From: Isoetes taiwanensis | Taxonomy: Eukaryota; Streptophyta; Lycopodiopsida; Isoetales; Isoetaceae | Reading direction: 5' to 3' | NCBI GenBank assembly: GCA_021234155.1 | Contig: JAJEKV010000002.1 | Coordinates: 10,344,725-10,408,724, forward strand | Length of the DNA stretch: 64,000 nt | Shown: positions 2,080-23,250 of the stretch, in pieces | Numbering within the stretch: the first letter of the stretch is position 1 | Layout of the letters: each line of letters begins with the position of its first letter | Made by a program: the position numbers and the translations under genes | Notes under the pieces: generated by a model | The model's database searches: none | What the model was told of the DNA's origin: nothing | What the model saw: only the letters and a program-made list of their open reading frames with translations

Positions 2080-2911
2080 TTGCTGCTTCCCCCTCTCCTT
2101 CTAGCCCACCATTTTAGTCTAGTCCACAACAGAGTCCGCCGCCCACTGAAGATGATGCTTGAGTCTGAAAAAGTAGAAGTGATGGTAGTGGAAGCATTGA
2201 AGCCCAAAAGAAAGAGATCACGGAAGGAGACAAAGAAACTTGAGAAAAAACAACCAAGTTTTACGTACTAGATTCTCCAGATACTCAAATCGCTGGTAAA
2301 GATAAGAATATGGCCTAAGAAGTTGGAAGATATTGAAAATAGATGTCGTATTTCTGGAGTTATGCATCTTCTAGTGGACTTTGTAAAATTGTGTCCCAAA
2401 AATGAAAATGGTGAAAGGTCCCTCCAAGTTAGAATTATATATGCGGAATAGACCTAATACTGCCACAACCCCACATATATGGATTGTAGATCCTAAACAG
2501 GGCATCACCTTGAAGCAGTTTGTGAAGGAAGAAGATGAAAGGTACAGGTACTTCGTCTTAGGTGATACACACAGTTTTACAGCTAGGAGGCAGTTGTACA
2601 AAGAAACAAAAGCCCATGCTTTTTCCCAAATCTTTGCCTTTGTTTATGTTGGCATCACTGATTCAGAAGAAAAACTTCTTGCCATGAGCCACAATGTGGA
2701 TAACGAGTACAAGATGAGCATGAGTTTTAAGATAAAGTTTATCCACAAGGAGTATGAGCTCTTTCGAGCAGAACACCAGGGCAAAGACATTAAGAATGAT
2801 CAAGACTTCTATTCGCAATTGAAAGAACAATGCACTACAGAGTGTTGCTTGACTTACTCGGCTATAGATATCAGAAAGTATAACAATTATTTCCAGCTAG
2901 CCTTCGGGCAC
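2080..2911 (+). pseudogene. Left part of a ParB-like / DNA methyltransferase-like gene, interrupted by the chromovirus
   Basis: A degenerate S/P-rich and K/R-rich stretch (2,080-2,270) precedes a well-kept ORF segment at 2,402-2,911. That segment contains YFVLGDTHSFTARRQLY and, 20 residues on, FAFVYVGITDSEEKLLAMSHN. The order (G-x-H/R-S-x-x-A-R-R, then a hydrophobic strand, then a deeeAl-x-x-x-x-N-like helix) is that of the ParB/Srx N-terminal fold. The frame stops making family sense exactly at 2,911, where the LTR starts, and continues after the second TSD copy at 31,543. The right part carries methyltransferase motifs, so the original gene was probably a ParB-MTase fusion. The ParB assignment comes from pattern only and is moderate. 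Confidence 0.55.
2907..2911. repeat. Target-site duplication GGCAC, left copy
   Basis: GGCAC directly precedes the first LTR base (2,912) and recurs at 31,538-31,542 directly after the last LTR base. A 5-bp duplication is the normal product of Ty3/gypsy integration and shows that both LTRs belong to one insertion. Confidence 0.95.
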
Positions 2912-3780
2912 TGTGACATTCCAGGGGAATATACGCCTTAGATACGTGTATTCCTGGATTCGTCACTATACAAGTCGACCTTTGGTAGCCTTGTATAACT
3001 TAGGAAGTGACAAGGGGCCCATATCTAAGTTAATTGTTTAACTTAGATAACCTTAGGATAAGGCCCATTTCCACATGGCCTTACCCTATTGGGCATACCG
3101 CCACACGGCCCCATCCTAGAGGTGCCACGTGTCATCCCATGTGGACCCTCACCTATATTGGCACTAACCCTAACCCTAGACCTCTTTTCCTGACTCTAGC
3201 ACCTGAACACTCATCTACGCACTCGAAACCCCGTTTCGAGCATCGTTCGTAGTAGCATAGCCTGGCGCAGCAGCCCCCAGAAGTGTGTGTATGATCATAG
3301 AGGGAGCACGATCTCAACCCCGACAAGGAGCAATGGAGACACCAGGGATGGGAGGAAGCGCTTCTGGAGCAGGTAGGTGGAGTAGAGTCATAGTAGTTCA
3401 TCTGGAAGTTAGCACTCCAGATGGGTTTGTATGTTGTATCTTGAGTAGAGCCATCCTAGAACCTTTGATGAACATCTTGAACCCTAATCAAGGAACCCTA
3501 ACTGTTAGTTAGATATGTATGATTAGGTTAAGATATTCTTATTATGATTATCCTATATTATAAAGTTTTAGTGTATGTCGTGCATAAAACCCTAAAACTT
3601 TCGACGGCCCAGATTTGAACACGTAAGAACCTAAAAATAAACAAAAAGATCGTGAGGTTTTTTTTTGGCTATGGCGGCTAGCCTACTTTGCTTCAGAGTT
3701 TGCGTTCTGTTTATCTGACTCAAATCCTGAATCTGAGAGTCTGTTATGGAGAAGCAGCTATGGCGGCTAGCATGTAGCGT

Positions 3781-3912
3781 ACTTTGCTTCAGAGTTTGCA
3801 TTCTTCAGAGTTTGCTTCATAATTTGCATGTGATTTTTCTTCAAGCACTTTGCTTCAGAGTTTGCATTCTTCAGAGTTTGCTTCATAGTTTGCATGTGAT
3901 TTTTCTTCAAGC
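3781..3912 (+). repeat. 66-bp tandem duplication inside the Helitron
   Basis: Two near-identical 66-bp units (3,781-3,846 and 3,847-3,912) built from shorter CTTCAGAGTTTGC repeats. They differ by one or two bases. No coding function seen. Confidence 0.9.
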
Positions 3913-4226
3913 AGGGCACAAATCGAACCAGGGGAGTTTCCGCATCATTCTGACACAAATCCGGTTGAGATTTGATGCAATTTAGAGTTTAGGGTTATGG
4001 CGCCTGACGGATTTTCTCTTACAGAAGGCAGGGGGTTTTCTGCTTTCTAGCGTCAGCTATTCTTTTTCTTCCCATTGTTGTGATTCTTGGGGCTTCTGCT
4101 TTAGAGAAGGAGCTATAAACTGGATGATCCTGTCATTGACGAAGCATGGCCTCTGGATTCTGTAAGCCTCCTATTTTGCATAGAATTTGATTGTGTCAAA
4201 CTGGTGAAAGGATTTTGTATTGCCAG

Positions 4227-4334
4227 AGGATGGCTTTGCAAGCAACTCACCTTGCAAAAGAACAAGCGCAATTTAACGGAAATTTTTTTGTTGGAGCTTT
4301 AGGCTTTGCTTTTGAATCATCCCACATGCATCAG
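4227..4334 (+). other. Exon-like fragment possibly captured by the Helitron
   Basis: A 108-bp open block encodes 36 residues (starting RMALQATHLAKEQ, ending ESSHMHQ). It is bounded by a consensus acceptor (TGTATTGCCAG) and donor (CAG/GTAAAT). A second splice-like junction (CTTTGTAG/ATGG) follows near 4,475. I do not recognise the protein. Helitrons often carry exon pieces of host genes, so capture is a reasonable inference, but coding has not been shown. Confidence 0.35.
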
Positions 4335-5519
4335 GTAAATGATTAGACTTTTTCTTTCTATATTATTGCCTCCTACTTGGGTTTAATCAATTTCCGTTAA
4401 AGACAAAGCATTGCCTGTAGACCTCATAGCTTGCATTTTCGGTTATTCTCATGGACTCACATTCTGACCTTTGTAGATGGTCCAAAGGAAAGGGAAATAC
4501 TGGCTATGGGGACGTCATTTCTGATATCAGCTTCCAGCATGGAGTAGGCATTTGCTGGAGGAGGACCTTTAGTTTAGACATAAATTTCTAAAAGCTAATT
4601 GCATTTTATTGAACTCCAGGAAGCTAATCATGCAGCGCCCACAAGCACCACAGGCTTCAGCAAGTCATACATTCTAAAGTACAGCCCATGGTGAACAATA
4701 ATTCCCGCACAAGATATGTTGAACTTACGGTATAAACCAGCAGTGCCATCAGCGCAAAACTTCATTTTTGAAGCCATGTATCCACTTTTTTCATCTACTT
4801 ATTGTTGCATAGGATGATATGCTATTAAGCTTGCTTTCTTACCATGTTCTTCACCATATTAAAGCACTGCAAATCTCAAAGCAGGAGTTTATATAGAAAC
4901 CCATCATACTTCCTCTTTGTACTTTTGGTAAACCAGTTGCAGATCATACTTACTTGGACATATTGTTCAAGGAACTTTGGTCTTAAATTGGAGGACCAAG
5001 TCACAATGGGATCTTTATTAAGAAGACATTTGAGTAGCTGGGCTTGCTATATTGCTAGAATGCATAACATACATGGATGGAAAGACGATTTGAGGATAAC
5101 TACCATTATATATGTGCTTAATATGCACAACCGTTATAACTGTGTTCGATATTCACATATTCCAATTTAAATATAGATGCATATCATAGTGCTTTTACAA
5201 GTGAGATCATGAGAATGTATGTTTTCAAAAAAGAAGTCGCAGATTTCGTAAAGAAGTCGCATCAAGCGCATGACTTGACAAGTATATAGCTCTTCTTAAA
5301 GAGAGCTTGCACCTCTAAGTTAATTGACATAGCAACGATTATCAATGTACGAGGAAAATGATTGAATATAGTGTTTACAAGAGGCTTTCCTAAACAACTT
5401 AATCTTACACGCAGGTAAATGGCAAAATCCAAATTGGTTGGATCATGTGTACATGGTTTTACACCAACCACATGTAACACTTGATTTTGATTGTGCAATC
5501 ACCAAAACGTTCCCAATAA

Positions 5520-5641
5520 ATTTGCTACATTCAAAAAATTATATTTTAAGTTAAATCAATGTTTATATCATTATGCATCTCACTACACTCAAGAAATTAC
5601 ATTTTAAGTTAATCAATGCCTTTATCATTATGCATCTCTAA
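5520..5641. repeat. Imperfect tandem duplication, about 65 bp, in the Helitron
   Basis: Two diverged units share ACATTTTAAGTTAA-TCAATG and TATCATTATGCATCTC. The rest of 4,840-6,390 is AT-rich with no protein family I can recognise, although short open frames exist. Confidence 0.6.
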
Positions 5642-6387
5642 GAAAGGTAGCCGAAGCATCACAATGTAATCTATCAAAGACTTCATTATCAATTTTTACA
5701 TGTTTTCTCAATGTAGATTTCAGTTATATTGTATCTGATCTATGTTCCATAGAAATTGATGCAGGTCATCTCCACATAATGCTCACTCATAATGCTCACT
5801 TAGAGCAAATCATCTCGACATGAAACCCATGACACAAGGAGATCCTCCCCTTAAGAGATATATGGTTTCTCATATATAATATCAAAGCACATGTGCAATA
5901 CTATGTTCAGCATTTGCATCCTAAGTAGCTAAGATTTCCTTTACTAACTATATGACAATGACATCCTATTATTCTTGCATTCTGCAAGTTCTATGTGGAC
6001 TGCTTATGCAAGTTCTGTCTTACATGCTAGGCCAACACAACTTACATATTTTCAACTTACGCCCAATAGCCTCAACAAAGCCTTTGAAGGTTTGTGGTTG
6101 TGGTATTTTCTTGCATGCTTTCCTCATTGCGACCCAATACCCTTTCAACACTTATTGCATACACATCCATACACACTGTCTATTATTCACTTTACAATGG
6201 TATTTTGTCTTGAATGCTATTTGGTTTTGGAATTTTGCTTCTTGCATACAACACACAGGCAAGTCACAAACCAATTAATTCAGTTCAGTTGACATTTACA
6301 AAAGTATTTTGTATTGAATGCCATTTCGATTTTGTGTTCCCGCCCTAATCAACACTGTAGGAGCTATGCGTCTTTTTTAGCGTTGTT

Positions 6388-6498
6388 AAACCTTTAGAAA
6401 GTCATTGTGGCCAAAACATTTACAGGCTTCCAACCTTTAGAAAGCCATTGCGGCCAAAATATTTATAGGCTCCCAACTTATGCCCAGCAACGCTGGGC
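6388..6498 (+). repeat. Helitron 3' subterminal repeat pair and terminal hairpin
   Basis: A unit beginning AACCTTTAGAAAG and ending CAGGCTTCC (about 43 bp) is present twice, followed by the 7-bp-stem hairpin at 6,482-6,498. The hairpin serves as the rolling-circle termination signal in Helitrons. Confidence 0.75.
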
Positions 6499-7509
6499 AC
6501 CATTACTAGTCATGATATGATGTTATAAGATGTTGGTTTATCATGTTTGCTCCTCTTGTATTGGGAAGGGGGGTAGAGACCTAGGGCCATATGTAGTATG
6601 CTCCTAGTGTAGATCCCTTAGTTCCTATTAGTTGCGGCCTGTGCATAGGAACCCACCGGGTTATGGAGGCTATGATGTGACTCAGCACTACACAACGGGA
6701 CTAGAGGCGATGCGGAGGGAGGACCCTACCGAGTGGGGGCTACGGGGGATCCCATAGTGGGCTAGGCTTATGGTCGGTCACCTTGTGTGGGCCGAGCATA
6801 GGTCCGACACCTCCTGGGGCAATGGTGCCGCCCTGCCTCTCAAGAGTTGCAAGTGTTAGCTTGGCTCTTGTTTTGGGGGGTTCAGTCGGGTACGAATCGT
6901 GTGTCGCCACGATTCTCTAGCTGCCCGAGGAGTCTCTAGATCCCGGGAGGGGGAGATGCAACCCTTCGTGCCTCGACGGACCAGGGAGATGCAACCTGGA
7001 GTAGTCCCGATGGGTGATGCCATGGGATTGCGTATCCGGAAGGCTAGAGTCATGCCGAGCGATGGAGCCCATCCGCAAAGTATGCAATGGAGGGGCGGAT
7101 GGAGTGGTCAACCCTAGCCATTGTCTTATGCCAGCCCCGCCTTGTCATGATTCGGGCCTGCTCTATCTTGAGGCCTATCCAGTCAGTCGACTTCCTTGTG
7201 TGTCGGAGCCACGGGTAGGAGCTCTCATGTTTTATGGCATATGATTATGTTCTTTGCACCTATGGATATGAGGATGAGCTATCCTTCGAGGTAGTGTGAT
7301 GTATTGTTGTTGCTAGTTCTGACGATGTTTATGCTTCCGCTGTGATAGGAGCCCATAGGGGAAGGGCGCGCAAGACACCTTCGTGTCCCCTTCCCGCACT
7401 ACGGGGACCCCAGAAAGGGGATAGGCGGAGGGCCCCGCTCCGGAGGGGCCGGATGGGGATTTCCCTCACGGAGTGTTTGGCCGTAGATATTTAGTAGGGA
7501 GCGTCACAA

Positions 7510-7521
7510 TGGTATCAGAGC
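7510..7521 (+). other. Primer binding site (tRNA-iMet type)
   Basis: TGGTATCAGAGC starts two bases after the 5' LTR end. This is complementary to the 3' end of plant initiator methionine tRNA and is the commonest PBS of plant LTR elements. It fixes the start of the internal region. Confidence 0.92.
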
Positions 7522-8089: not shown

Positions 8090-9209
8090 ATGGCGTGCAC
8101 CAAGTAGACAGCCAGGAAGTTTGGTGAGAGACCCACACTCTCGATGGCACAGGTAGCAGCAGGTCGCCATGTTAAGCAGGTTCTGCCACACCTTCGACCG
8201 AAGCCAGGAGAAGAGGCGTTTTCCTCCAGCGATGATACCTTCCACATCTCCCAGGAGGAGGCCCCCAGTAGCAGCAGCAGCTCTTCGTCGGCGGGCACTC
8301 AGCGAACCGACGAGTCTCGCCATTTTGGACCCTCGTCTGACACAGAGGTGGAGCATCAAGATGAAGAGCAGGAGGGGGACCAAGAGCAGCACCAGACTCA
8401 GGAGCCAGGCCCCTCTTCACTGAAGAAGAAGGGCAAGAACAAAGTTGCAGAGTGGGAGGAGGAGAGGGCAGCTCGGAAGAGGAAGGAGAGGGAGCAGAGG
8501 GAGAGGGAGCGGCGAACCAAGAGAAGAAACGACAGGCCTCGCGGGACTGTCGTAATTGAGGAACGAAGGGTGGACGAGGAGGAAGAGGAGGGAGGAGCAG
8601 GTGATGAGGAGGAGGAAGTCCATGAGGAGGAGAACGAAGCCGTTGGGGAATCTTCAGACCCCAACGCACGCCCACCCTACCCGAAGTGGCCCAAGCCACC
8701 GGGCGCTGAAGAAGCGTATGGGGGCGAAGGCCATTCGGCCCATGAGGAACGCTAATTCAAGCGCAGTTTTAAAGCAATTCAAGAGTACCTTCGTCACGGA
8801 CGAGGTACAATGACCGGTATTGCGCGTAACGGAGCGCCCTACGGCCAAAGGGCGCCACCGGGTTAGAAGAACCAGCCGAAGCCGCCACCCCCACGTCCGG
8901 AGAAGCCGAAGAAGGTCCACCATGGGCCTAACTCTCGGCATGCCAAGGCTTTCGAGATTAAGCACTTCCAACAAAGGCACTAATCTCCGATCGAAGAAGG
9001 CCCTTCGAGCTCGATGGGAGGTGATACAGGAATTCGTGACGGACTACAGAGTAACTTCCTTAACCACACGAGTCTTGCAAGTAGCGGCCGAGGCGGAGCT
9101 GACGCAGCTTTTTGAAGAAGGGAACCTATGCGCCATCCACGCCAAAAGGGTGACAGTAATGCCTAAGGATCTCCATTTGGCCCGGAGAATACGTAAGGAG
9201 TATCCTTGA
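8090..9209 (+). pseudogene. Histone H3-like protein encoded inside the chromovirus (degraded)
   Basis: The frame starting at ATG 8,090 reads M-A-C-T-K-stop-T-A-R-K-F-G, which matches the H3 tail start (M-A-R-T-K-Q-T-A-R-K) with one stop (TAG 8,105, one base from CAG). The same frame runs on as a long Ser/Glu/Lys-rich insert (about 8,144-8,755). It includes a poly-Ser run, a basic KRKEREQRERERR-type coil and a Glu-rich run. Stops lie at 8,753 and 8,864. Around 8,930-8,980 it resembles the H3 alpha-N entry ([13 protein letters not shown]), then shifts by one frame. Positions 8,979-9,206 encode the histone fold, ending with [20 protein letters not shown], nearly the canonical H3 C-terminus. Canonical H3 is about 136 residues; this one would be about 370. 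It lies on the sense strand between PBS and gag, so it is part of the element. Confidence 0.88.
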
Positions 9210-9985: not shown

Positions 9986-11678
9986 ATGGCGCCTTCTAAC
10001 TTCGTCAGATGGTATGATGCTGCCAATCATATCCCTGATCTTCCTGCTGACCAAGCCTTCCATGTCTTCGACCATCTCTTTGATTTGCATGCAGCATTAA
10101 CCAGAACTCCCTTCTACACTGATATCATGTGCCAATATGACCAGCAGATCCTACCCTGGGAAGTTAGCTTGCCACCTAGGGGAGGGAAATGGGTATCCCT
10201 AGATTCGCTTACCCAAGCTGTAGGGGGAGGATCCAAGGGCAAGAGTAAGCTGTGGGATAGGACCAGAAATATGCCCGATTACATGACCTGCAAGCATAAT
10301 AGGCATAGATACCTCTCAGCCCAGACAGCCCTCGACTTATTTATGCAGTATAAATCAATCAACAAGACCAGAGAGCCCTCAATTCAGCCTTTAGACTTAG
10401 CACCTCTTGACACCCGAAGGGAGCAGATCAGCATCCATGAGATCGAGTCTTCAGAGTACGAGTACTATGGCCCGACCTCAGGAACGCCGATGCTGTAGAT
10501 TGAGCAAGACTACGAGCAAGAAGGGGAGGAGAATCCAAGTTGGAAGATGAGAGAAGCAAGGAGGATGGAGAGGCGAATAGCCCGGCAGGAAGGCATATTA
10601 AGGCGAGATTTCGAACCGCCAATCGGCATCACGACCCTGACTCCAGTGATTCATCGATGGCGAGGAGTACATCCTGGCCAACGATATCCTTAACCTTCCT
10701 TATTGCCAAGAAGAAGGCCTCAGGATCGATGAGCTCTTAAGCTTAATCGCAAAAGAGCAGGGCAGCGACTTCATCGACTACTCCTATCAGGAAATTCCAA
10801 GGGAGTTAGCAGAGCGGCACTCCTACGCCGGGGAGACAATGTCGGATATACAGGCCTATCAGCAGATAAGGCAGATGTATCAATAGCAGGAACCCATCAT
10901 CCCAGAGGAAGAGTTCCAGGAGATACAAAGCAGATTGTACAAGCCAGGAAGAGGCCCAAGCACCAAATACCGCCGGTGCGTTCCAGAGCATCTTGTGCTT
11001 CCAAAGAAACATCAACTTGGAGAACGCAACAATAATGTGGAGGGATCACGAAGACCTTGTCGCATTAGATGTCTTCGGCGAAGGAGCTCAGAGAAAAGGT
11101 ACGGGAACTGGGGGCACAGCGAAGGCTAAGGCACTCAGGTACTATCTCCCTGCCCTTAGTCAAGAGCAGATGATAGTCTTCCATAAGGAGTTCAGCCCAA
11201 GAGGGGAAGAGTCCGTAGCGCTCCTTATAGCACTCTCAGGCTTCGGGCAGCATGCCAAAATAGACTACGTAGTAAATCATGTTATCCTCTTTAAGAGATC
11301 CGTAGCTCATGGTCTCGACTTCGCCAGGGGACATCTTAGAGATGCGACATTATCAGTAGTGGCAGCCCAAGAGGGGAAGAGTCCGTAGCGCTCCTTATAG
11401 CACTCTCAGGCTTCGGGCAGCATGCCAAAATAGACTACGTAGTAAATCATGTTATCCTCTTTAAGAGATCCGTAGCTCATGGTCTCGACTTCGCCAGGGG
11501 ACATCTTAGAGATGCGACATTATCAGTAGTGGCAGCGACGGCACCCGAACTCCCCGCACCTCAGATGGCCAGAGCACTTGAAGGGGGATCGGCCGGAAAG
11601 ATCTTGCAAAACGTCAGCAAAGGCCTACGACTCAAGAACGTCAAGAACTTCTTCAAGTCCACGAGGGGGCATCGATGA
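9986..11678 (+). pseudogene. Unknown second accessory ORF of the chromovirus
   Basis: Starts at ATG 9,986 (MAPSNFVRWYDAANH) and reads to a stop at 10,496. Related coding sequence continues through further stops and shifts: an acidic block with DYEQEGEENPSWK, a helix-rich block with ILNLPYCQEEGLRIDELL near 10,670-10,750, and IMWRDHEDLVALDVFGEG near 11,030. The last part, FGQHAKIDYVVNHVILFKRS and a basic tail ending at 11,678, is interrupted by a 170-bp tandem duplication. I do not recognise the family. Position before gag and sense orientation suggest an accessory or extended gag-like protein. No zinc knuckle, protease or polymerase motif is visible in it. At roughly 560 codons it is too large to be a chance frame. 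Confidence 0.6.
11193..11532 (+). repeat. Perfect 170-bp tandem duplication in the unknown ORF
   Basis: 11,193-11,362 and 11,363-11,532 appear identical. The unit is not a multiple of three, so it shifts the frame and ends the ORF early. Perfect identity points to a very recent event or an assembly artefact. Confidence 0.93.
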
Positions 11679-11997
11679 TGGAAAATTTGCCTTGTTGTCA
11701 TTTAAATTGTATTGAATATTTTCTTTTAGATATTATCATGTATCCCATGAAATATATTTCTAAATATTAATGACTTATTATGATCTTGACTTGTAAGTGG
11801 AATTTTCACATGATTTCTTTTGTACCTAACAATAATTTAATTATAGGTATGATTGATGGTAACCTAAATAACAAGCATTGATGATCAATCCTTGCAGCCA
11901 GGAACACATGCTCAGGTTCCCAAGGCCAGGGCCGACATCACCAATGGGTACCTAGAAACCTATTTGGACGTGAACAAGAAGACAACAACGAGGAAAT
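11679..11997 (+). other. AT-rich spacer before gag, possible splice acceptor
   Basis: About 220 bp of AT-rich non-coding sequence ends with CAATCCTTGCAG/CCAGG near 11,898, a good acceptor sequence. It could allow a subgenomic spliced gag mRNA, but no donor was established. Confidence 0.35.
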
Positions 11998-13159
11998 GAC
12001 GGTGGAATCAATCAACGCAAGGCTCACCTAGATGAGGAACCAGATGCACCAACTGATTCACTGGGCCACCCCATTGATGAACGCCCAAGAATATGCACCT
12101 GCACCACTACCTCCTCCACCACTACCTCAGCAAGGCATTGAGGAGGGACCACAACCAAGGGCAAGACAACCAGGGACATGTCAGGGACATAAAGAGGAAA
12201 AGGAGAACCCGAAGGACCCCAACACCATCCAGCTCCAGTTCATCAGACACTTCTGACAGCCAAGACAGTTCTAGCTCAGACAGTGAGTCCGATAGATCAC
12301 AGGTAAGGGCCAGGGCAAAGAAGACAGATGACTATCAGAAGAAAGTTGACAAATATATGAGCAATGTATGGAAGACTAGAAAGTTGGGGCCGGTTCTCGT
12401 GGAAAGACAATTCGTATGGAGGCGTGCTTGACTTGATCAAATGGAAGAGTTTGGAAATTCTTATGGCATGAAGGACAAAGATATAGGGAAGGTTGCTACA
12501 GCCAACTTAATAGGAGCAGCTAGAATTTGGTGGAAAGGGTACGCGAAGTCCAATAAGCTGAAAAGGAATAGTTGCGCATTCAAGACCTTCAAAGAAGGCC
12601 TTTCGCAAACATTATGTGCCAAGATCACATACTAGCAGGCAGATCCAACAATTCTACAGATTGAACCAGGGTACCTTGTCGGTAGCAAAGTACACACGAG
12701 GAATTTCATGCGACTCGAACTCCATGTTCCCGGAGTTTCGAAAGGCAAGCGGTTGAAACCTACATTGAGGGATTGAACAAAGAACATCAAAAGGCTAGTT
12801 CGAGCAATCAACCCAAAGTCGATGGCGTAGCCGAGGATAAAGCCATAAGCTTGGAAGAAGCTCCGGCAACTCCGGTGAGAAACAAATGGCCTTCAAAGGG
12901 AAATCAACGTGGGGCAATATCAAGGGCGCATACCGAGTAAGCAATCAGCACCCACGCCATCGAGGAGGCCAGCAGCAAGAAAGAGCTCGTGGTAAGACCT
13001 TTGGGGACCGTAAGTCCATGCAGAATGCATCGGGGCAAAGGCGCTTCGCGCCTTTTTTGCGGTCTGCCCGAAAAGAGAAGAGACAAGAGTGTATCGAGAA
13101 GAAGCTATGTTTTAGGTGCTTCCAGCCCGTGACACCGAACACATGATTGTCCATTCGCC
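11998..13159 (+). pseudogene. gag: Chromovirus gag (capsid and nucleocapsid), broken
   Basis: Coding begins around ACGGTGGAATCAATCAACGC with an in-frame TAG at 12,029. A proline-rich and Ser/Asp-rich segment (12,100-12,300) follows, then the capsid-like part containing LIGAARIWWKGYAKSNKL and, in a shifted frame, YREFHATRT-type gag sequence near 12,690. Near 13,110 a nucleocapsid zinc knuckle survives in part (CFRCFQP), with its remaining His/Cys lost by mutation. Stops at 12,429 and 12,633 and several frameshifts disable it. The family is recognised from the ARxWW block and the CCHC remnant upstream of protease. Confidence 0.75.
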
Positions 13160-14310
13160 ATGCGAAAAGGCTTTGGCAGAGCTTGGGGATTGGGATTCAC
13201 CAAACGTAAGCGATCGAAGACGACAAACCCGGCCAGGACGGCGAACTTCATAGAGGGTGAGTGCCATATATGTGCAAACATTGAGTCAGATGATATTGAA
13301 AATCAGTCCACAGTCATTGCGGCTGAGGGGATGGGGATCATAGATAGCAGTCCATATCTAGTGTTGATAGATACAGGTAGCTCTCACAACTTTGCCTCTC
13401 CTAGGCTGGCTGCCCTAATGAAGAATAAAGTCTTGAAGTCTAAGCCAAGGCCAGTCAGCATGGAAAACGGTGCCATTCGGCACACTAAGGGGAGGAGGAT
13501 CACATTCGACATAGACCTTAGTGGAAGTAAGTGGCCGATGGGGGCAGAGGTCATGGAGATTGGAAGGTATGACCTTATAGTAGGAATGGAGTTCCTAAAG
13601 CCAGCGAAAGCCATGATCGACTGCGACCGTAATGAGATCGCCATGACAGACCAGACGGCACCAAATTCATAGTGAAAGGTAAGAAGGCAGCTTCCCCCAT
13701 GCAGTGTATTTCTTTGAAGCAGCTAAGGAAAAGTATAGAAAGAAATAAGGTGGATTATATCCTGAGGTTAGAAGCAATTGACCCAGCTAAAGAGAAGGGA
13801 AGTGACCTAGGTGGGAATCAGTTGCCCAAGCCAGTAGCAAGGCTCATTTCAGAATTCAAGGATGTATTCCCGGATGAAATCCGGTAGTTACCACCTTATA
13901 GGGGTGTGGAGTGTGAGATCACGCTAGCTCCAGATGCTAAGCCTACCAGCAAGGCGCCTTATAGGATGAGCACCCCGGAGTTGATTGAGCTCAAGAAACA
14001 GCTACAGGAATTGCTTGACCTTGGATTTATTAGGGCAAGTGTGTCTCCCTTTGGAGCACCCATACTCTTCATGAAGAAGAAGGACGGGAGTTTAAGAATG
14101 TGCATAGATTATCGCCAGCTCAACAAGCGGACGATAAAGAATAAGTATGCTTTGCCAAGGGCAGATGATTTGATGGACCAGCTCCAAGGAGCGAAAGTTT
14201 TCTCTAAGATTGACTTAAGGTCAGGCTACCATCAAATAAGGATTAAGGAGGAAGATATCCATAAGACCGCCTTTAGAACGCGGTATGGGCACTTTGAGTT
14301 TACAGTAATG
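13160..14310 (+). pseudogene. pol: Chromovirus pol, left part: aspartic protease and start of reverse transcriptase
   Basis: The protease shows VLIDTGSSHNF at about 13,360 (catalytic D-T-G) and IVGMEFL near 13,580. A stop at 13,670 and another at 13,885 interrupt the linker. RT then reads cleanly from about 13,906: [37 protein letters not shown] and [14 protein letters not shown], ending GHFEFTVM at 14,310. The next residues of the RT ([10 protein letters not shown]) are encoded at 26,665, on the other side of a 12.3-kb DNA transposon. RT holds the template-primer and polymerises cDNA in the virus-like particle. Confidence 0.95.
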
Positions 14311-14311
14311 C

Positions 14312-14327
14312 AAATTGGGATTATGTC
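14312..14327 (+). repeat. Left terminal inverted repeat of the DNA transposon
   Basis: AAATTGGGATTATGTC, starting two bases after the last intact RT codon. It pairs with 26,633-26,648 with one mismatch. Confidence 0.75.
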
Positions 14328-15435
14328 AACTCCAAAATCACGCCAACCTGCTATTGTCTTCTAGGGGGTTTTTGTTTTTTTTAATCTTTTTTTTTGGACT
14401 TCAAAAATAACATAAGGTTGCGATTCACGTGTGACTTTTCATATGCGAATTGAAATATGCAAAAATGAAGAGCAAGTTGCTAACATAGATGAGACCAAAA
14501 TTGCTTGCTCGATAGATGATAATATTAGGTTTGATAATAACAGATTGCATTATTTGCGAGGCAATTCCAGACTCGAAATTATCGATACATGGCACAAATA
14601 TCATACAAAAATATCATATATTCCAATAAAACATTAAGGGATCAATCCATGTTTTTCCACGTGTTTAACAAGGTGTGGTTCCATGTCACCGTTCTATCCA
14701 TTAAGGTATGAATCTAACACTTCACCCACCGGGCATCCCCATAGCCAAACTATGCATAATAGACACAAACTTCACCGTAAAATCATCCGTCGCAAAGTTT
14801 TTGGATCGTAAGATGGTGGATTCGGGGCTGCGTTTGATTGTAGAAGCATTTGAGAGCATCATCATCCACTATGATTATATCATCCTTATTCTCGATACCA
14901 AGTTCGGTCCATCATGTTACTCAAGTGTTTGATGAAGATAGGCTTGCTGTTGGATCCTTGGGATTAGTGAACTTCACACATTTGTTCTCGATCCCAAAAG
15001 GTCAACCAATGTCTACGCATTTCCCCCAGTGCCTCCAAAGTATCCTTGATGTTCCTTAGTTCCATGGATGACCAAATACCAACTCGAAATAACTTGAATG
15101 CCTCATCTAGCATCTCCTTCAAGTGCGGCCGCGGATAGATCCACTTGGTGTTTGATTCTACCGTGTCCGATGAAACCCATCTCTAGCCACTTTATTTTTT
15201 TGGAAAAGTCTTGCAAAGGACTTCGTTTAGGTCGAACACCACAACCTTCTTAGAAACGCAATGGAAGCTGAAACATCAAACATGTATCCGGTCAGCAAGA
15301 TACGATAACACAAACAATACAAACGCGCCAAGCGTGATTTGAGATAGTTAATCAAATCGCGCTCGGCGTGATTTAGTTTGACAACGAAAAATAATCAAAG
15401 CACGCCTGGCGCGATTTAATTCAAAGTAATACAAA
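14328..15435. other. Transposon left arm, no gene recognised
   Basis: AT-rich sequence with short open frames lacking family signals. The T-rich run at 14,370-14,395 and the AAATATCATA repeats near 14,600 are simple sequence. The dyad motif cluster starts at 15,324. Confidence 0.5.
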
Positions 15436-15454
15436 TTAAATCACGCGTGGCGCG
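15324..15454. repeat. Dyad motif cluster A (4 copies)
   Basis: Copies: CGCGCCAAGCGTG (15,324), CGCTCGGCGTG (about 15,360), CACGCCTGGCGCG (15,401) and CACGCGTGGCGCG (15,442), all followed by ATTT. Spacing is 30-45 bp. These are variants of a CACGCCWGGCGTG inverted motif that recurs through 15.3-23.3 kb. Confidence 0.85.
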
Positions 15455-15678
15455 ATTTCGTGGGCAAGGCCATACCTATCATCTTCAGTTTCGCTGCCGT
15501 CGTCGGCGTCATTCTCCCCATCGCCACCCTTAATCTTCGTCTTCTTCTGACTGTTAGAATTGTTATTTTCTATTAGTTCCGCTGCGTCCTTCACAACTGA
15601 CATTATTTTACTATTGATTTGGCAAACCTGTGAATCACTAGAGCCGCCTTGGTTGCCTTGATTTCGGTTTCCCGCCAA
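15436..15678 (-). pseudogene. C-terminal part of minus-strand transposon gene 1 (Asn/Gly/acidic)
   Basis: Encodes 80 residues rich in Asn, Gln, Ser, Asp and Glu, with a KKTKIKGGDGENDADDGSE segment. It lies downstream of 15,820-16,130 and 16,225-17,547 on the same strand and is probably the end of the same decayed gene, after intervening stops. No domain recognised. Confidence 0.4.
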
Positions 15679-15819
15679 TTATTTCATTGTTAACCCGTGA
15701 ATCTACTCTATTGTTGCTTGCATCACCCGCAATGTGGGCAAAGATATTCCCTAAGTTCGCCCATCCACGGTTACTTTGAGCAGCCCGGTTTAGCAGCTAT
15801 TTGTTCATTATTGCTTTCC

Positions 15820-16130
15820 TTATCGGTATTTGCGGATTACTAGGTCCCTCACCGAAGCAACGTCCACTTCGGAATTGGACAAGTCTACGAGACTTTTGAT
15901 TCTTGATGATTTCAGGTTGCCATAAGGGCCTTTAGGAGATTTGGCAAGCACATGCATGAGGAATGGTTCAAGAACTTTGGCACGCCCATCACTCACAAAG
16001 CAGTGACATCTTCTTGCACCCATAAGAGCCTCTCGCAATATAACCTCCAACATGAAGCTCCAAGCGGTTGTATCAATTGAAGCAAATGCCTCGGCGAGGT
16101 AAGCAGACCATAGACGGGAAATCCATTTTT
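15820..16130 (-). pseudogene. Middle part of minus-strand transposon gene 1
   Basis: Open on the minus strand from about 16,130 (SAYLAEAFASIDTTAWSF) through an ORF of 77 codons (MLEVILREALMGARRCH...). It follows the larger 347-codon ORF after a frameshifted acidic linker (SEEDEDRDP, 16,190-16,150). The continuity of hydrophobic and helical sequence suggests a single protein with the flanking parts. No family recognised. Confidence 0.4.
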
Positions 16131-16224
16131 ATTTAAGGGGCCCTTCTCCTTAGTTTGTAGCTCGTGCTTGATTTCCCCACTTAGGAGGGGGTCCCGATCC
16201 TCATCCTCTTCTGACTCATCCCCG

Positions 16225-17547
16225 TTACGACCGATCCTGATCCGTATGAAAGAATATAGTTCTTAAGTCTGGATCATCTAGAAGAAAACATTCCCATGCA
16301 CTGCTATTGTCACCCTTGGCCTTAGCAATATCATATTCCTCGTCTGACAGCATGGATATCATAATAAAGATCACATGTGCCATCTTCCGTTCTGTTCGCA
16401 GCTCATTATCCTTAACATCATATATTAGGCATCCCTCCCTAATAACTTTGAGGCACTCCAGATCATGAGCAGCGGATAGTGCATGCAGATGTGACTCACG
16501 GAAAGGACAAAAACGATGACAATAGTGAAGGACCTCTCGGTTGTCAATCCTATCTGGTGGTAAAGAAGCTGCTTTGTAGTCCTTCGGTTCATGCCCATAT
16601 CTCCTCTCCCACCCCCCGGCCGTCCCAACACAAAAGAGTGATATATTTTTAAGGCCAGAAGTTGATTCTGGCAAGAGACCTTTGTACCCAATGGAGACTG
16701 AATACTGGACAGCGTCGTCTTCTCCAGTAATCTTCTTCACAAGGGCCACTTTTCTTCTCAACTCGGCCAGTACCTTAGGGGGTAGAGTCTCCTTATGTTT
16801 TGTATTTTTAGCCTTCCAATTCTTTAGGAAGTCCTTTGACCAGAATACAAACTTCTTGATGTCATCATTACTGACCTTGTATTTGTCCAGCAATCCAATT
16901 TCAGATAATGCCACATCCCCCAATAGCCTTTGTAACTCAGCTCCTACAACTGACTTCATTGTACGTACATCCTTTACACGGCTGCAGCACTCAACGAAGG
17001 ACATCCTATCCTTGGTGAAAGCACCCTTCTTGTATAAGACTTCCTTCTTTAAGCACTGGTCTAAAACCCAAATGGTCTCAGCGTCGTCTAGCCCCTGAGT
17101 CTTTCTCATCTCTGTCACATTCAAGTCAAAGATGCTTACATCAACAGGAGGCACCCTACCCATAGTATCCGCGGCTTCCTTTGTGCATAAAAGCCCCGAA
17201 TTCATTCCACTTTTGCCATCTTGCATCCTTACAAAACACAATCTTATCTGAGTCATTTGGGCTGACACGCTAGATGAGCTTTTCGAGGAAAAAGATCTGC
17301 AATGTCATCACCACCTTTTTTTTCTTTGATTTTCTTGCAATTTTTCTTCTTCTCTGTATAATTGTTCCATGACGGTCCGGCTCCGGCCACTTGAAGCCTC
17401 GGACTTTGACCATGCAATGCGGTGGGTAATGGGCACCATATTCCACCCATCGTTGTTGGCGGGCGGGCGCGGCTTGCTCCACGTATGGACTGCCAAAAGT
17501 ACGCGAGGCATTGAATCGATGATCGAGACAAAAACGGGCGATTTCAA
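16225..17547 (-). pseudogene. Minus-strand transposon gene 1, main ORF (unknown)
   Basis: The first 79 codons run from 17,547 (possible starts at 17,547 or 17,511) to a TGA at 17,308. The same frame then continues through MSAQMTQIRLCF at 17,268 to 16,225 (347 codons). Together about 440 residues would be read across one stop. The N-terminal part ends in a basic/acidic coil (EQLYREEEKLQENQRKK). The larger part is helix-rich with scattered Cys and His (CHRFCPF near 16,510) and no motif I recognise. Its upstream region holds the densest dyad-motif cluster (17,569-17,833). A role as a transposon accessory or DNA-binding protein is inference from context. Confidence 0.5.
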
Positions 17548-17568
17548 TAGAAAAGATCAACCTCAAAG

Positions 17569-17833
17569 CACGCCTGGCGTGAAATGAATTAAATACCAAT
17601 GCAATTCACGCCAGGCGTGCTTTCGAATCGGTTGAATTCACGCCAGGCGTTATTTCAAATGAATTGAAATCACGCCAGGCGTGCTTTCAAATCAAATCAA
17701 TTCCACGCCCGGTGCTTTAACATTTCACCGGGCCCGAATCGGGTTTGATTTGATTGCCGCTGGCGTGATTTGGTTTCATTACAGAAATCACGCCTGGCGT
17801 GAATTGGTTTCATTTGAATGAACGCCTGGCGTG
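17569..17833. repeat. Dyad motif cluster B (7-8 copies)
   Basis: CACGCCTGGCGTG at 17,569 and 17,789. CACGCCAGGCGTG at 17,607 and 17,671, with CACGCCAGGCGTT at 17,639. AACGCCTGGCGTG at 17,821. Partial copies near 17,703 and 17,759. Copies are 30-40 bp apart with AT-rich spacers of the type AATT-motif-AATT. The cluster is directly upstream of the start of minus-strand gene 1. Confidence 0.95.
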
Positions 17834-18473
17834 AATATGAAAGTGCTAACATCCTAACACAGTTAGTTACCTTTTGTATAGAAATGTCTTCCCCATTTCA
17901 TTCAAAGTTGCACTAATCTCGACCAAATTTGCGGGTGAAGTATTGGCATCCAAGATCGACACCTCCTATACCCATAGTGATTGTAGAACGCGTTTTGGCT
18001 TTGTTTGTTACCTTTTTGCTGATGAGGGCCTTACGTGCCTCAACACGTCATGCTGCCGTCGATGGCGGCCAATTTAATGTGTTCCTTTAACATTACGTCC
18101 TCGGTTTAGGCCCCTTTCAGCCGGGCTTGTTCGAGATCATATCCCAAGGTAACACATCCGTGGCATAGGCATTTGACTGGATTACTAATCATGCTCAACA
18201 ATCTCCATGGCATGTGCTGGATCATATCTTCTGCTAACATAAATGGAGCTTGGTGAACGGATGAGGGACTTCACATGGATCGCAAAAGTTTCCTTAAGAC
18301 CCAATGGATAATGGTCAGGCGTACTTATTCAAATTGTTCATGGCCTCTAGTCGCGCCACCCCTGTCTGTTCATTCTCAAAAGCGGAAGCCTCCATGCCTT
18401 CGACAAACCGCAGGGTTGAACATCCTTCCCTAGATCTAGGACCCTCTTAGAAGCTTTCAAGTCGGCTAATTCC
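17834..18473. other. No gene recognised
   Basis: Mixed-composition sequence between two minus-strand genes. Short open frames on both strands show no family signal. It could be decayed coding sequence of minus-strand gene 2. Confidence 0.4.
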
Positions 18474-19551
18474 CTAGCTTTGCCGCAAATAGTGACTTGG
18501 TGTCGGTTTAGTGAACATGCCTCTACGCATAGCTGTAACCCCTTGGCAAATAGATATTGGCGTAACTGCTACATTGGTTGGCCAACCATACTTAAAACAT
18601 GTCTCACCGTTCACATCTGTCTTCATGAACGTATCCTTGTATGTAGTAGCTCTCACGCTGGAGTAAGTCCGGCGGATCTTTCTTACGCTTACATGTAATC
18701 TCCAAGAGCAATTTGCGCTGGTGTCATCTTCTTCCTCACAAGAGATTAGGATCCCTTGTTTGGTCATCTTATGCCTTCCTTTTTTCCTCGAGAAGAGAGT
18801 TAAGTCGAAGCTTGCCATTTGTCTTGGCAAGGTCAACGCGTTACCACTCGCACCCTCGCCCATTTCCTCTTAGGCGGGGTCGATGGTTGCTATAAGAATC
18901 GGCCCTTCATCATCTAAGGTGAGATCATATGGTAATTGCATCCGGGTCGCCTACCCTTGACTTCTTGGCGAGATTAGAACCCGAATTATTAGGGGTTTTC
19001 TTCCTCTTGGCCACCGCAAAAAGAAGATGAACATTTTTTAGTACTTTTCGTAACGGAGAGATCACGCTTGGCATGCATTAAAACCTAAATTAGTACAATT
19101 CACGCCATGCGTTTGGTAGCTCTATTCTTGACCATGCTATGCGATTTTGAAACTAAATTAGTTTGCATCCACATTTTAAGTCTGCATACCCTTTATGAAT
19201 CCATATTTCACACTATTTAACCTCATTGAACATTGCTATCTCCAACCTGCCTAACACCGCTATATTCTATATATAAAAAAGAGCAAAATTATGTTCTACA
19301 AAACGGACAATCAGAGCATTAACTGATGGTAATACTTAAAATTCATGCAAAGCATAATAACTCAAACTCATGCAAAGCATATTAAGGAAATATCTCAAAT
19401 TCATGCAAGCATAATACTCTCCACACAGTGTGTATTCTGTGGCAAATTAAATACCTTGAATAGAAACTTGAGAAGAGACGGGTTTTGAGATTCCTCTTCC
19501 ACCGCTTCCTCTGCCCCGTCCGCCTCGACCACCTCTGGTTTTAGAAGACAT
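18474..19551 (-). pseudogene. Minus-strand transposon gene 2 (RGG/NLS-rich N-terminus, unknown)
   Basis: Exon 1 (19,551-19,455) encodes MSSKTRGGRGGRGRGSGGRG and a further 12 residues, and ends at a good donor (CAAG/GTATTT). Near 19,010-18,940 an open block encodes KRKKTPNNSGSN and KKSR, a nuclear-localisation-like pattern. The expected acceptor there reads TTTTTGCGG instead of an AG. The frame then shifts, with DLTLDDEGPILIATIDPA, a stop near 18,866, and a 129-codon ORF (18,863-18,474) with CSWRLHVSVRK and ETCFKYGWP. A C-x-W-R-x-H layout can occur in transposase zinc-binding regions, but I do not claim a family. Broken by at least one stop and one lost splice site. Confidence 0.45.
19063..19113. 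repeat. Dyad motif cluster C (2 diverged copies)
   Basis: CACGCTTGGCATG at 19,063 and CACGCCATGCGTT at 19,101, each with two or three changes from the consensus. They lie within the presumed intron of minus-strand gene 2. Confidence 0.7.
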
Positions 19552-20406
19552 CTCCGAAGTCACCTAGTAATGAGTGGGAAGGTAAACCGGATACGCCTTC
19601 GAGCTGCTCGAAGAAATAGCTTTTTCTTTCATGCGAGAAATAGCGTTTTCTACCTGCACGAGAGAAATTTGAATTTCAAGAAAACACAAAATGCAGTTTC
19701 GAAATATTCTTGACACATACAAATAATAATGACGAAGACCCGTCCGCCGACTTCTTTCATTAAGTTTTTAAAAACCAATCTACCCAAAATGTATCCCGCC
19801 AAATTTATCCCGCCTAAACATAGTTAACCTAATCTTTCTTCTAATTCAATTTTTCCCGGCCTTGAGGAGTTTCTATAAGCTTTGTGATTTCAAATCGGCT
19901 TCTCAAGAATGGCTACGAATTACGGTACTCATCTCATTCCTATAGCTTGAACATTAATTTCCAATAGTAGGTAGTGTCGAATAGCAATTTTAGCAAGTAG
20001 CGAAGATGAATGTTTCATGTTAACTACAAATCGAAAAAGGAAAGTAGGATTATGCAAGATCGACTCCATCGATCCATCAGAAAAGCTGTCATGGAATTCC
20101 ACTTTCGGGGATAAGTATGTCCGAAAGTTACAGTGATTAATCTAACTGCGCTATGGATGAAGCTTTACCTCGCAGACACCCGGTGGGGATACGGTTGGAG
20201 AAAGTGTTGGAACATTTGTTGCATGGCCAAGAAACCGCTTAAAAAGGTATGTAACATGTTTACATTGTAGAAATATAGAAGTAGACAAAATTTGTTGTAT
20301 TCATTGGAAAAAGTTTACAATTGTATATAATCTGGATAAACCGGATAAACCGGACAAAATCCCGGACCCCTCTTGTTTCAAGCCCGGTCTCATCGAGTAG
20401 CCGGGC
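19552..20406. other. No gene recognised
   Basis: Upstream region of minus-strand gene 2 and flanking AT-rich sequence. Short direct repeats occur (AGCTTTTTCTTTCATGCGAG / AGCGTTTTCTAC near 19,620; CCGGATAAACCGG near 20,335). No convincing ORF or RNA gene. Confidence 0.4.
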
Positions 20407-21048
20407 CTATCGATACTCCCATTTCCATAGCCGGGCATAGTGAACGGACGTAAAACCCCAAAAAAAACACCGGGGCTCTAGCTCCACCTCCCCCCTTTGC
20501 TCCACCTCCACCTCCTGCTCCTCCTCCTGCTCCATTGGTTGAACCTCCAATGCATCGTTATAAACGCTGCGGTAGTGGTTCCATTGGTTGAGCCATCTCC
20601 ATTGCATCAGATTATCTTTTGTGGTAGTGGTTCGTGTTGGGGCATCCGGGCATAGAGGCTAACCACTAAACGCCCAGCTCCTCATTTTGAATCTCGAGTG
20701 ACGGATCACGCGATTCACTCTCGATCAATGCATGTCTTTGCATTCTCGAAGTGATTAGATAAGAGGGCCACCTCCATGCGATTGCAAGGGCCCCGAGCCC
20801 CGTCTATCATTGCCCCGCTCTGCTTTGCCATCATCATTACTTGATCCAAGTACTCGGGGGTTGCAAGGCCCGGTGCTCAGCCCGGACTGGTGCTCTACGG
20901 TGGGTTCAACCATTTGGATTGGAGCGAAACCGGAAATGGGCCGTGTGATTGCCGCCCAAATGTAATTCCAATGCATCTTCGTCACCAACCGGGTGATTAA
21001 TGTAACTTGGCATCTATCAATAGGAAGTGAGCGATATCGATTATTCAC
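20407..21048 (-). pseudogene. Minus-strand transposon gene 3 (unknown, acidic end)
   Basis: A 97-codon ORF starts at 21,048 (MNNRYRSLPIDRCQ), three bases from the dyad motif at 21,045-21,058. After a stop and frame changes, a second ORF (20,607-20,407) carries the acidic run EQEEEQEVEVEQRGEVELE. The two could be parts of one protein or separate frames. No domain recognised. Position directly after a dyad motif parallels genes 1, 4 and 5. Confidence 0.35.
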
Positions 21049-21109
21049 GCTTTGGCGTGTTATATTTATTTATTTATAAACTTAGAAACTAAGAGACACG
21101 CCCGGCGTG
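21045..21109. repeat. Dyad motif cluster D (2 copies)
   Basis: CACGCTTTGGCGTG at 21,045 and CACGCCCGGCGTG at 21,097, at the start of minus-strand gene 3. Confidence 0.85.
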
Positions 21110-21159
21110 TTTAGCGTAAAAGTTGAAAGTAGGGATAGGAAAAACTATACACTGCCTTC

Positions 21160-21321
21160 GTGCACTTTCAGAGAGGAGGGAAAAAAAAATGCGGATAGAT
21201 AAGTAAATAGATAAAGGCCAGGCAATTATTTACACGCTTAGTGTAAATAATTGCCTGGCCTTTATCTATTTACTTATCTATCTGTACAGGTTTTTTTTTT
21301 CTCCCTCTCTGCTGAGTGCAC
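21160..21321. repeat. 162-bp palindrome with a 42-bp perfect stem
   Basis: 21,194-21,235 is the exact reverse complement of 21,241-21,282, with a 5-base loop (GCTTA). The arms extend imperfectly outward through matching A/T runs and GTGCACT / AGTGCAC ends to 21,160 and 21,321. It would form a very stable hairpin in RNA or a cruciform in DNA. No coding. A dyad motif copy (CACGCCGAGCGTG) starts at 21,319 at the right end. Confidence 0.95.
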
Positions 21322-21376
21322 GCCGAGCGTGTATTCATGTTGAAGGCTAAGGTTAGCATAAAACACGCTTAGCATG
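21319..21376. repeat. Dyad motif cluster E (2 copies)
   Basis: CACGCCGAGCGTG at 21,319 and CACGCTTAGCATG at 21,364. Confidence 0.8.
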
Positions 21377-21484
21377 TTTCAAATATTATCTTTCGCATGT
21401 TTCAAATATTATCTTTCAGATTTTTCTAATGCTTTCTACTACACTTATTCATAATAGAAACTTGCATGCAATAGCATGATTAAT

Positions 21485-21905
21485 TCAGGAAGAGAAACTC
21501 AAGAATTTACTCGAAACAAAAAGAAGCAAATGAAGTTTATAAAAAACTATTCTGGTTTTCATAAACATCATCTCCTCCCTACCCTCGAAAGCAAATGCAA
21601 AAGCTTGTCTTCTTGGATTAAACCCCATTGAGATGAAACTTAAAACTAAATGAAAACTAACCTTGAGTTCGAGGCTTTTGGAAGGATTCAAGAACCGGAG
21701 GACTATGCTTGTGGTTTTAATTCGGGGCTTTTCGATTCGGACCTTAGTCCTCCTCTCAGATGATGCTCTGAACTAAAAGGCGGAGTTTTTTAGTAAGTTA
21801 GAATTGCGAAAACCAAACATCTAACATTGTTTGAATATAAATCGCTCACCAAGATTTCGGGAGGGCGATCCAAACACGCAGCAGAAGCAAACCGCAAATC
21901 GTCAT
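21485..21905 (-). pseudogene. Minus-strand transposon gene 4 (short, spliced, unknown)
   Basis: ATG at 21,905 is preceded by a TATA box (21,953-21,962, CCTATATAAATCC on the minus strand). Exon 1 encodes MTICGLLLLRVWIALPKS and ends at donor TTG/GTGAGC (21,850). A basic block follows at 21,755-21,665 (TKVRIEKPRIKT, then NPSKSLELK) and ends at another donor-like AAG/GTTAGT. The acceptor choice is unclear, so the mature product cannot be stated. Its promoter module is nearly the same as that of gene 5. Confidence 0.4.
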
Positions 21906-21935
21906 TATGAAGGAAGGAAGGAAATGTAGGAACTT

Positions 21936-22023
21936 TGAGAGCGTGAAATGGATTTATATAGGCATAATTAGAAATAAGTTAGCGTGAATAATTGATTGCT
22001 TGAATTAACACGCTGGCGTCACG
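21936..22023 (-). promoter_or_regulatory. Promoter module copy 1 (TATA plus dyad motif)
   Basis: On the + strand: TTGAGAGCGTGAA, then GGATTTATATAGG, TAATTAGAAAT, TAGCGTGAATAATT, and a dyad half-motif at 22,009. The same arrangement recurs at 23,161-23,250. Read on the minus strand it gives a TATA box about 50 bp upstream of an ATG. Confidence 0.7.
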
Positions 22024-22735
22024 ATCTTCACTTGGACATGACATGTATATGGTATATATGGAGAATATTGCATTTCATGCAATAAATTCTCACGGCATTT
22101 TATTCCATTTATTGCATTCGAAAAAATAGAATTTATAAATTTTATATAGGCTAAATTAAAAATGATTTTAAAGGCAAAATTATCAAGGCTAAAAAATGAC
22201 TTGTAAGGTTGGGGAATTGTTTTAGGTCGTATAGGAAAATTTCCTATGGTTACTGTGATGAATCAGAGATTTCTCATGTCGTTGATTTATAATGTTCCCG
22301 AGACTTTGTTGAGACAAAATTTGCAGATACAAAATTTTAGAGAAAACAGCAGACGAACAGGAGACAAAATAATTGGAGAAAACAGTTGGATGTAATTCAA
22401 ATAATTTTATGTACTGAAAAAAACTGCTCAAGAACACTTGTTTGAAGAAAATTTTATGAAAACTGCTTTAATTTCATTCATAAAAGTTATATGTACAAAG
22501 CAGTAAGCCCGAAGGCTTGTAAGCAGTGCCCGGCTTTTCACAAAATTACATGAAAAAATGCCCCGGAGGGGTGTCCAAAAGCTTCAGAGCAAACCAAAAA
22601 CAAAAGGGGCAGGGATTCACGCATCATTGATCTTCCACGCCTCAGAACAAAGAAGAAAGAAAGGTGTTAGAAAAGAAAGACCAGGTGAAAAAAAAAAAAA
22701 AGAGACATGCAAAACTGGCTCATCCCTCAACCATT
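22024..22735. other. No gene recognised
   Basis: AT-rich flank. Short open frames, including 22,222-22,437 minus, show only low-complexity hydrophobic residues. The stretch 22,440-22,735 is the 3' region of minus-strand gene 5. Confidence 0.4.
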
Positions 22736-23125: not shown

Positions 23126-23160
23126 GGCGGGCAGAAAAAAAATTTGGACAGAATGGAGGT

Positions 23161-23250
23161 CTTGAGAGCGTGAACCGGATTTATATAGGGTTAATTAGAA
23201 ATTAGCGTGAATAATTTATTGCCTCAAATAACACTCCAGGCGTACGAAAT
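23161..23250 (-). promoter_or_regulatory. Promoter module copy 2 (upstream of acidic gene)
   Basis: Same block order as at 21,936-22,023, with a few substitutions and a 4-bp length difference. It ends in AACACTCCAGGCGTACG, a diverged dyad motif near 23,227. Similarity continues weakly to AATAAATTCTCACG (23,290; also 22,080). Confidence 0.7.

Follow-up and report, generated by a model that had tools for sequence, protein, structure and literature searches.

Histone H3-derived reading frames in chromovirus LTR retrotransposons of Isoetes taiwanensis

Results

A broken H3-derived frame lies inside a chromovirus element

The window, a 64,000-nucleotide stretch of the Isoetes taiwanensis genome, contains an LTR retrotransposon with a frame derived from histone H3 between its primer binding site (PBS) and gag (Table 1). 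The order of protease, reverse transcriptase (RT), RNase H, integrase and chromodomain, with TG...CA LTRs, a tRNA-type PBS and a 5-bp duplication (GGCAC), is that of Ty3/gypsy chromoviruses; in a sister copy of the element (L012), gag was found as well. The original prediction had placed the H3 frame inside a single retroelement, and the LTR pair with its flanking duplication bears this out. The two LTRs differ by a K80 distance of 0.0248 over 1,601 sites, and the PBS is of what we take to be the tRNA-iMet type.

Two insertions are nested in the element. The one in the 5' LTR starts with TC, ends with CTAG after a 3' hairpin (TGCCCAGCAACGCTGGGCA) and sits between A and T, and the corresponding empty site is found in the 3' LTR near 30556; we take these to be Helitron features. 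The one dividing the RT contains a DUF7869 frame of 422 aa (24933 to 26198, E = 4.6e-33) and an antisense frame of 347 aa (16225 to 17268) with no match in Pfam. Outside the element, a direct duplication of ~800 bp with 92 to 97% identity was seen at 54390 to 55983.

Table 1. Features of the H3-bearing element in the window
Feature	Position	Strand	Basis and remarks
Target site duplication GGCAC, left copy	2907..2911		Flanks of the LTR pair; right copy at 31538-31542
5' LTR, with nested insertion	2912..7508	+	LTR pair, TGTGAC...GTCACA
Helitron-like insertion nested in 5' LTR	3551..6509		Letters; empty site in 3' LTR
PBS, TGGTATCAGAGC	7510..7521	+	Letters; LTR end and PBS also in 7 of 8 relatives
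H3 tail codons	8090..8119	+	M-A-C-T-K-stop-T-A-R-K in the window copy
Long linker from tail to fold, charged and of low complexity	8120..8917	+	Reading of translations
H3 fold, alpha-N to C-terminus	8918..9209	+	PF00125 and PDB H3 matches; frame change in the window copy
ORF2 remnants, interval between H3 and gag	9986..11675 (end approximate)	+	Pieces match sister ORF2, 22-43% over segments
gag region	11676..13142	+	By position; Cys/His-rich end by eye; the gag Pfam match is from sister copy L012, not from the window
Aspartic protease	13160..13669	+	PF08284, E = 2.5e-10
RT, part 1	13888..14310	+	82-89% identity to the RT of sister copies (11 of the 13 with usable RT)
Nested insertion dividing the RT, about 12.3 kb	about 14311..26660		Borders approximate
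Remaining RT, RNase H, integrase, chromodomain	26661..29074	+	PF00078, PF17917, PF17921, PF00665, PF00385
3' LTR	29919..31537	+	LTR pair; G-rich polypurine stretch before it

The H3-derived frame (8090 to 9209) is broken. Re-reading confirmed the predicted interrupted tail at its start and the H3 fold at its end: the fold matched the Pfam Histone family PF00125 with E = 3.5e-18 (66.5 bits, compared to a cut-off of 26.4) and H3 chains in the PDB with E of about 6e-19, both far beyond chance. The final open stretch of this copy runs from 8820 to 9206, and the fold, which ends at 9206, is not in the frame of the start at 8090, so that the copy must contain, besides its several stops, at least one frame change. 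Among the 33 related copies described below, the R2C change of the tail was found in one other copy and the stop at Q5 in no other. The window H3 is a dead, decayed copy of an element gene. Its position had been given as between the PBS and gag, which was right (the PBS lies ~580 nt upstream), but a second region, ORF2, also precedes gag.

The ORF2 remnants include a perfect 170-bp tandem duplication (11193 to 11532), and no Pfam match was found in the two window pieces or the sister-copy frames that were scanned. ORF2 is conserved among the sister types (mean column identity of 74% in 8 copies), and several sister loci have an additional frame of 152 to 204 aa 3' of it.

Related copies keep the H3 tail up to K9

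We searched the 1,658,258,908-base assembly (1,110 contigs) with the DNA of the window H3. This gave 40 further match rows with 75 to 88% identity, 35 of which covered at least 1,100 of the 1,120 bases; they represent 39 loci (one was split), and since scoring covered 40 of the 1,784 first-look candidates, the number of loci is at least that. Twelve were read, including the fully open L043, and a protein search with L043 yielded 109 scored rows, its own among them, with 63 free of in-frame stops and 46 with stops (counted by eye). Another 20 stop-free rows were read, and together with the twelve loci and the window copy they make up a set of 33 window-type copies. As far as the search was carried, the H3 region expected in other copies of the family was thus present, at 39 loci, and many of the copies in the protein search are open.

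Open window-type ORFs are 365 to 385 aa long and consist of MARTKQTARK or a close variant, a long charged linker with the conserved YNDWY module and a stretch rich in proline at its end, and the H3 fold, for which four ORFs matched PF00125 with E values of 4.3e-29 to 1.1e-27. When compared to the canonical tail M-ARTKQTARKS, the first ten letters were exact in 20 of the 33 copies, K4 was present in all 33 and K9 in 31. Serine was never found at residue 10, where 21 copies have F, three A, three Y, two T, and one each C, P, V and W. The constraint on the window-type tail ends at K9. The fold carries K56Q, Y99E and alterations at positions 84 and 85 (by eye), and with this drift the entry of the window-type protein into nucleosomes is uncertain.

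Upstream sequence (1.1 kb) was read for eight window-type relatives. The LTR end and PBS were located 574 to 591 nt before the ATG in seven; six had the strict pattern and the seventh, L070, with a single change in the LTR end, was counted by reading, while no PBS was found within this 1.1 kb at the eighth locus. The shared arrangement argues that the H3 segment is not a separate insertion, the outcome that would have undone the original prediction.

The tail sequence was also counted across the genome. An all-codon pattern for MARTKQTARK had 1,051 places (516 + 535), and the same pattern reversed had none. Of 100 listed places, five or more coincide with canonical rows of the profile search described below and so are host H3 loci, and others may be host too; the 30-mers of the first 40 listed comprise 29 distinct sequences. 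Eight further loci (L075 to L082), chosen by eye for codon variety, contained neither a canonical H3 nor an S10 (0 of 8 for both); one was of window type and seven were of other long-linker types, with folds that are more drifted and partly broken. The exact PBS was present within 900 nt upstream in two of these seven and was not found within that distance in the other five. Given the eight non-canonical loci and the variety of sequences, the majority of the 1,051 places are probably element copies.

At least one additional H3 type with the tail is found among these eight loci; its fold has drifted strongly (such as HFEDSTACTVHAKRVTLMRQD). Elsewhere in the assembly (G000:C217:120970-132589), three identical MARTKQTARK-coding 30-mers occur with ~5.8 kb spacing, perhaps as a small array.

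Sister elements carry a nearly host-like H3 fold behind a different N-terminal domain

When the genome was searched with the Histone family profile, 8,705 first-look candidates arose, a figure that is no copy number, and 150 of them were scored. Fifteen of the scored rows were read as canonical H3 and 135 were not. The eight host H3 loci that were read (L001 to L008) are canonical and encode 136 aa. From the non-canonical rows, 20 were read as a sample of three sister types, A, B and C (A-C). In 18 of these an open frame of 401 to 494 aa ends with the H3 fold, and two are shorter. The proteins consist of an N-terminal domain in place of the window-type tail, a linker and a nearly host-like fold; three ORFs matched PF00125 with E values of 3.2e-42 to 2.6e-41. 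The canonical tail is absent from these types.

Exact TGGTATCAGAG behind a window-like LTR end was present upstream in 13 of the 20 A-C loci, and no PBS was found upstream in the other seven. Four elements, three A-C and the window one, were read across both LTRs; each is bounded by LTRs with the H3 inside, and the 5-bp duplications are clean in the window (GGCAC), L012 (CAATC) and L019 (TCGGA) and show a one-base offset in L018 (TGACC).

The 20 A-C folds aligned to host H3 over 97 positions with zero gaps, and 63 positions were invariant. C110, H113, R116, T118, D123 and R129 were each present in all 20 copies and the DNA-contact residues in 19 or 20, save for R42 (15 of 20); we take the first six to be H3-H3 contacts and the others to be contacts with DNA. 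As judged from this alignment, histone-histone contacts and most DNA-contact residues are kept in A-C. An ARK(S/T) motif upstream of the fold was absent in 18 of the 20, the exceptions being the C-type loci L018 and L027 with ARKS in the linker. Six of the 20 have H87, where the host H3 loci have S or T, a feature that presumably recalls plant H3.3.

A structure model was made from 16 of 17 full A-C ORFs. Block means (10 residues) ranged from 54 to 92 in residues 11 to 220, with a mean of 58.6 overall, and the model was poor outside these residues, the H3 fold included. Foldseek returned no match at E <= 0.001 for the modelled N-terminal domain.

The fold and tail are under purifying selection

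dN/dS was estimated by the Nei-Gojobori method as means over usable pairs, in 21 open window-type ORFs (210 pairs) and in 17 open A-C ORFs (of 20; L016, L017 and L023 were dropped) with 56 within-clade pairs. Both sets were chosen via histone score or an open frame, and this choice lowers dN/dS. The window-type means were 0.070 for tail residues 1 to 10 (145 pairs) and 0.055 for the fold (147 pairs), compared to 0.141 for the module (197), 0.188 for the linker (200) and 0.187 for the proline-rich stretch (148). Pooled pN/pS values in this set were 0.13 for the tail, 0.10 for the fold and 0.33 for the linker. Within the A-C clades, dN/dS was 0.027 for the fold (54 pairs), 0.122 for the N-terminal domain (33), 0.125 for the basic tail (43) and 0.212 for the linker (47). 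The N-terminal domain lay outside the score used for selecting the ORFs, yet it is constrained within clades. Between the A, B and C clades dS was mostly saturated, and pooled pN/pS was lower in the fold (0.14) than in the N-terminal domain (0.57).

The dN/dS below 1 anticipated for other copies was thus obtained for the window-type fold and tail and for the sister fold. Based on the many copies and on ratios well below 1, the H3-derived frame is very probably an element gene kept by purifying selection.

Two other identities were considered for these ORFs and rejected. CENH3 is marked by a longer loop 1 and a fast-evolving fold; the 20 A-C folds are gapless to host H3, and fold dN/dS is low in A-C and window type alike. 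A stand-alone host H3 gene encodes 136 aa, far from the lengths of the element ORFs of either type (365 to 385 aa in the window type, 400 to 453 aa in A-C).

Similar RT sequences are joined to different H3 modules

The window RT (part 1) is similar to that of most A-C copies, with only two of the 13 outside the range given in Table 1 (68% and 36% identity); usable RT was absent from 7 of the 20 A-C loci. In ORF2, the window and A-C pieces share only 22 to 43% identity, and comparison of the tail and N-terminal parts of the window type with those of the A-C types gave no match. In a tree of H3 folds, the window type formed a separate clade (support 100/100) on a long branch, and A-C formed a clade with moderate support (91/80). 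The similar RT sequences next to divergent ORF2, tails and folds suggest similar backbones with different 5' modules, which may have arisen by one capture with fast change, by several captures or by module exchange.

The capture and retention of a host H3 gene had been predicted from the window copy alone. Its retention is upheld by selection and by the many copies, but the picture of a single gene was too small: there are several H3 module types in the genome, and two of these accompany closely related RT.

Discussion

Retrotransposons are restrained by chromatin marks on histone H3. In Arabidopsis, KYP is a writer of H3K9 methylation and CMT3 and SHH1 are its readers; SHH1 requires unmethylated H3K4 alongside methylated H3K9 (PMC7617993, excerpts). 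The residues A1 to K9 are those read or written by such plant silencing factors, and their display without S10 could interfere with silencing. We tentatively favor, as the likeliest mechanism, a counter-silencing role in which the product of the H3-derived ORF (H3-ORF) would imitate H3 and so act on host chromatin. The window-type protein would display A1 to K9 on a long tether, without S10, and could either titrate H3K9 readers as a decoy or, together with host H4, enter nucleosomes on element DNA and disturb the loop between H3K9 and DNA methylation. The A-C proteins, which have no tail 1 to 10, would form nucleosomes that miss the usual K9 and K27 sites. Tail-bearing and A-C types would thus both counter silencing. 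On a broader and somewhat more speculative reading of the sequences, this retrotransposon clade could be using H3 variants as a weapon, its own nucleosomes or decoys defeating silencing by H3K9 and DNA methylation, and the differing H3 modules on similar pol could reflect an arms race with host readers. If so, the defeat of silencing would help explain the high copy number in the genome.

A landing pad or tether is a rather unlikely alternative, in which the protein would join host H4 in nucleosomes while the integration complex docks onto its N-terminal domain or its linker, labeling chromatin for insertion or for nuclear retention. The fold is the most constrained part of the A-C proteins, with histone-histone and most DNA contacts kept, the N-terminal domain is modeled with fair to good confidence, and the integrase already carries a chromodomain, all of which would suit a tether. 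It leaves unexplained why window-type copies retained A1 to K9 and lost S10, and, lacking a Foldseek match, the N-terminal domain gives no readable docking role.

It is improbable that the H3-ORF protein condenses element cDNA in the particle or soon after nuclear entry, in the manner of giant-virus histones. H3 alone does not fold, an H4, H2A or H2B partner was absent among the element frames scanned with Pfam, and the precision of A1 to K9 would be superfluous for packing. On the other hand, the proteins do combine basic tails with an H3 fold, and some virus-encoded histones are known to assemble into particles with DNA (PMC9145170, excerpts).

Slightly less probable again is a tail that attracts methylation at K4, or readers of this mark, and so supplies the element with transcription-friendly marks. 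The invariance of K4 in the window-type copies fits this, but K9 is nearly as well kept, and the A-C types have no such tail. That the H3 is an idle captured passenger whose decay is not yet complete would agree with the stops in the window copy and in 46 of the 109 protein rows, but this is very unlikely and already disfavored by dN/dS of 0.03 to 0.07 at synonymous distances around 1 and by the number and sequence variety of the MARTKQTARK places. Finally, a host H3 gene or an unrelated insertion that fell into the element by chance, with nothing but H3 similarity to recommend it, is scarcely credible and already disfavored by the position shared among window-type relatives and by the four elements with H3 within their LTR pairs.

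Counter-silencing by an H3 mimic, the reading we prefer, can be set beside known systems. Virus histones (bracovirus H4, single H3s of DNA viruses, Marseillevirus doublets and those of medusavirus) are likewise core histones on mobile agents; in many cases their N-terminal tail is extended or altered, and the bracovirus H4 enters host nucleosomes, its extended tail being tied to host suppression (PMC9145170, excerpts). They are encoded by DNA viruses, whereas the H3 described here belongs to a many-copy group of LTR retrotransposons and can hold tail residues 1 to 9 far from the fold. A DNA-virus histone was rejected as an identity for the H3-ORF, which lies in LTR retroelements. Influenza NS1 (ARSK) and SARS-CoV-2 ORF8 (ARKS) also imitate the H3 tail and engage host chromatin factors, but with four-residue motifs on other proteins (PMC10208167, excerpts), whereas the element has an H3 fold and, at the true protein start, about ten tail residues.

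ORFs additional to gag-pol, located 5' or 3', are likewise found in the plant Ty3/gypsy elements Ogre, Retand and Athila, with plant mobile domain, Transposase_28 and Athila ORF-1 among the domains named; the survey describes such ORFs as highly divergent and of doubtful function (PMC6317226, excerpts). None of those elements is a chromovirus, their domains are different, and the H3 part of the element described here is conserved and selected, although the full domain list of the survey may include a histone.

Chromovirus elements and virus histones are each known separately, and H3 on an LTR element appears to be a new combination. According to the original prediction, no LTR element with an H3 is known, and none was recognized among the titles and abstract openings of the open-access papers listed. 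The word "histone" had no hit in the genome papers of Isoetes taiwanensis (PMC8566536) and Isoetes sinensis (PMC10541799), and the text of the viral-histone review (PMC9145170) had 0 hits for "retro". If the counter-silencing reading is true, an H3 of the element's own, with tail residues 1 to 9 kept across large synonymous divergence and never S10, would be a direct molecular counter-move, would offer a natural test of the H3 residues that silencing factors require and would extend virus-encoded histones to retroelements.

Public contigs hold other long proteins with a C-terminal H3 fold (P0127, P0130, P0136, P0149, P0150, P0152, P0128 and P0125; 250 to 642 aa), whose N-terminal parts have no detectable similarity to A-C or the window type. 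The first six share a module before the fold (by eye, from an alignment), lie on contigs of 9.6 to 53.6 kb and may constitute another mobile H3 family. P0139 and P0142 are fusions in which H3 is followed, at the C-terminus, by what resembles an acetyltransferase domain (by eye). Distant H3-like frames, with 38 to 39% identity to the A-C fold, were also seen on two IMG/VR contigs (L033, 1973 to 2290; L034, 1054 to 1338).
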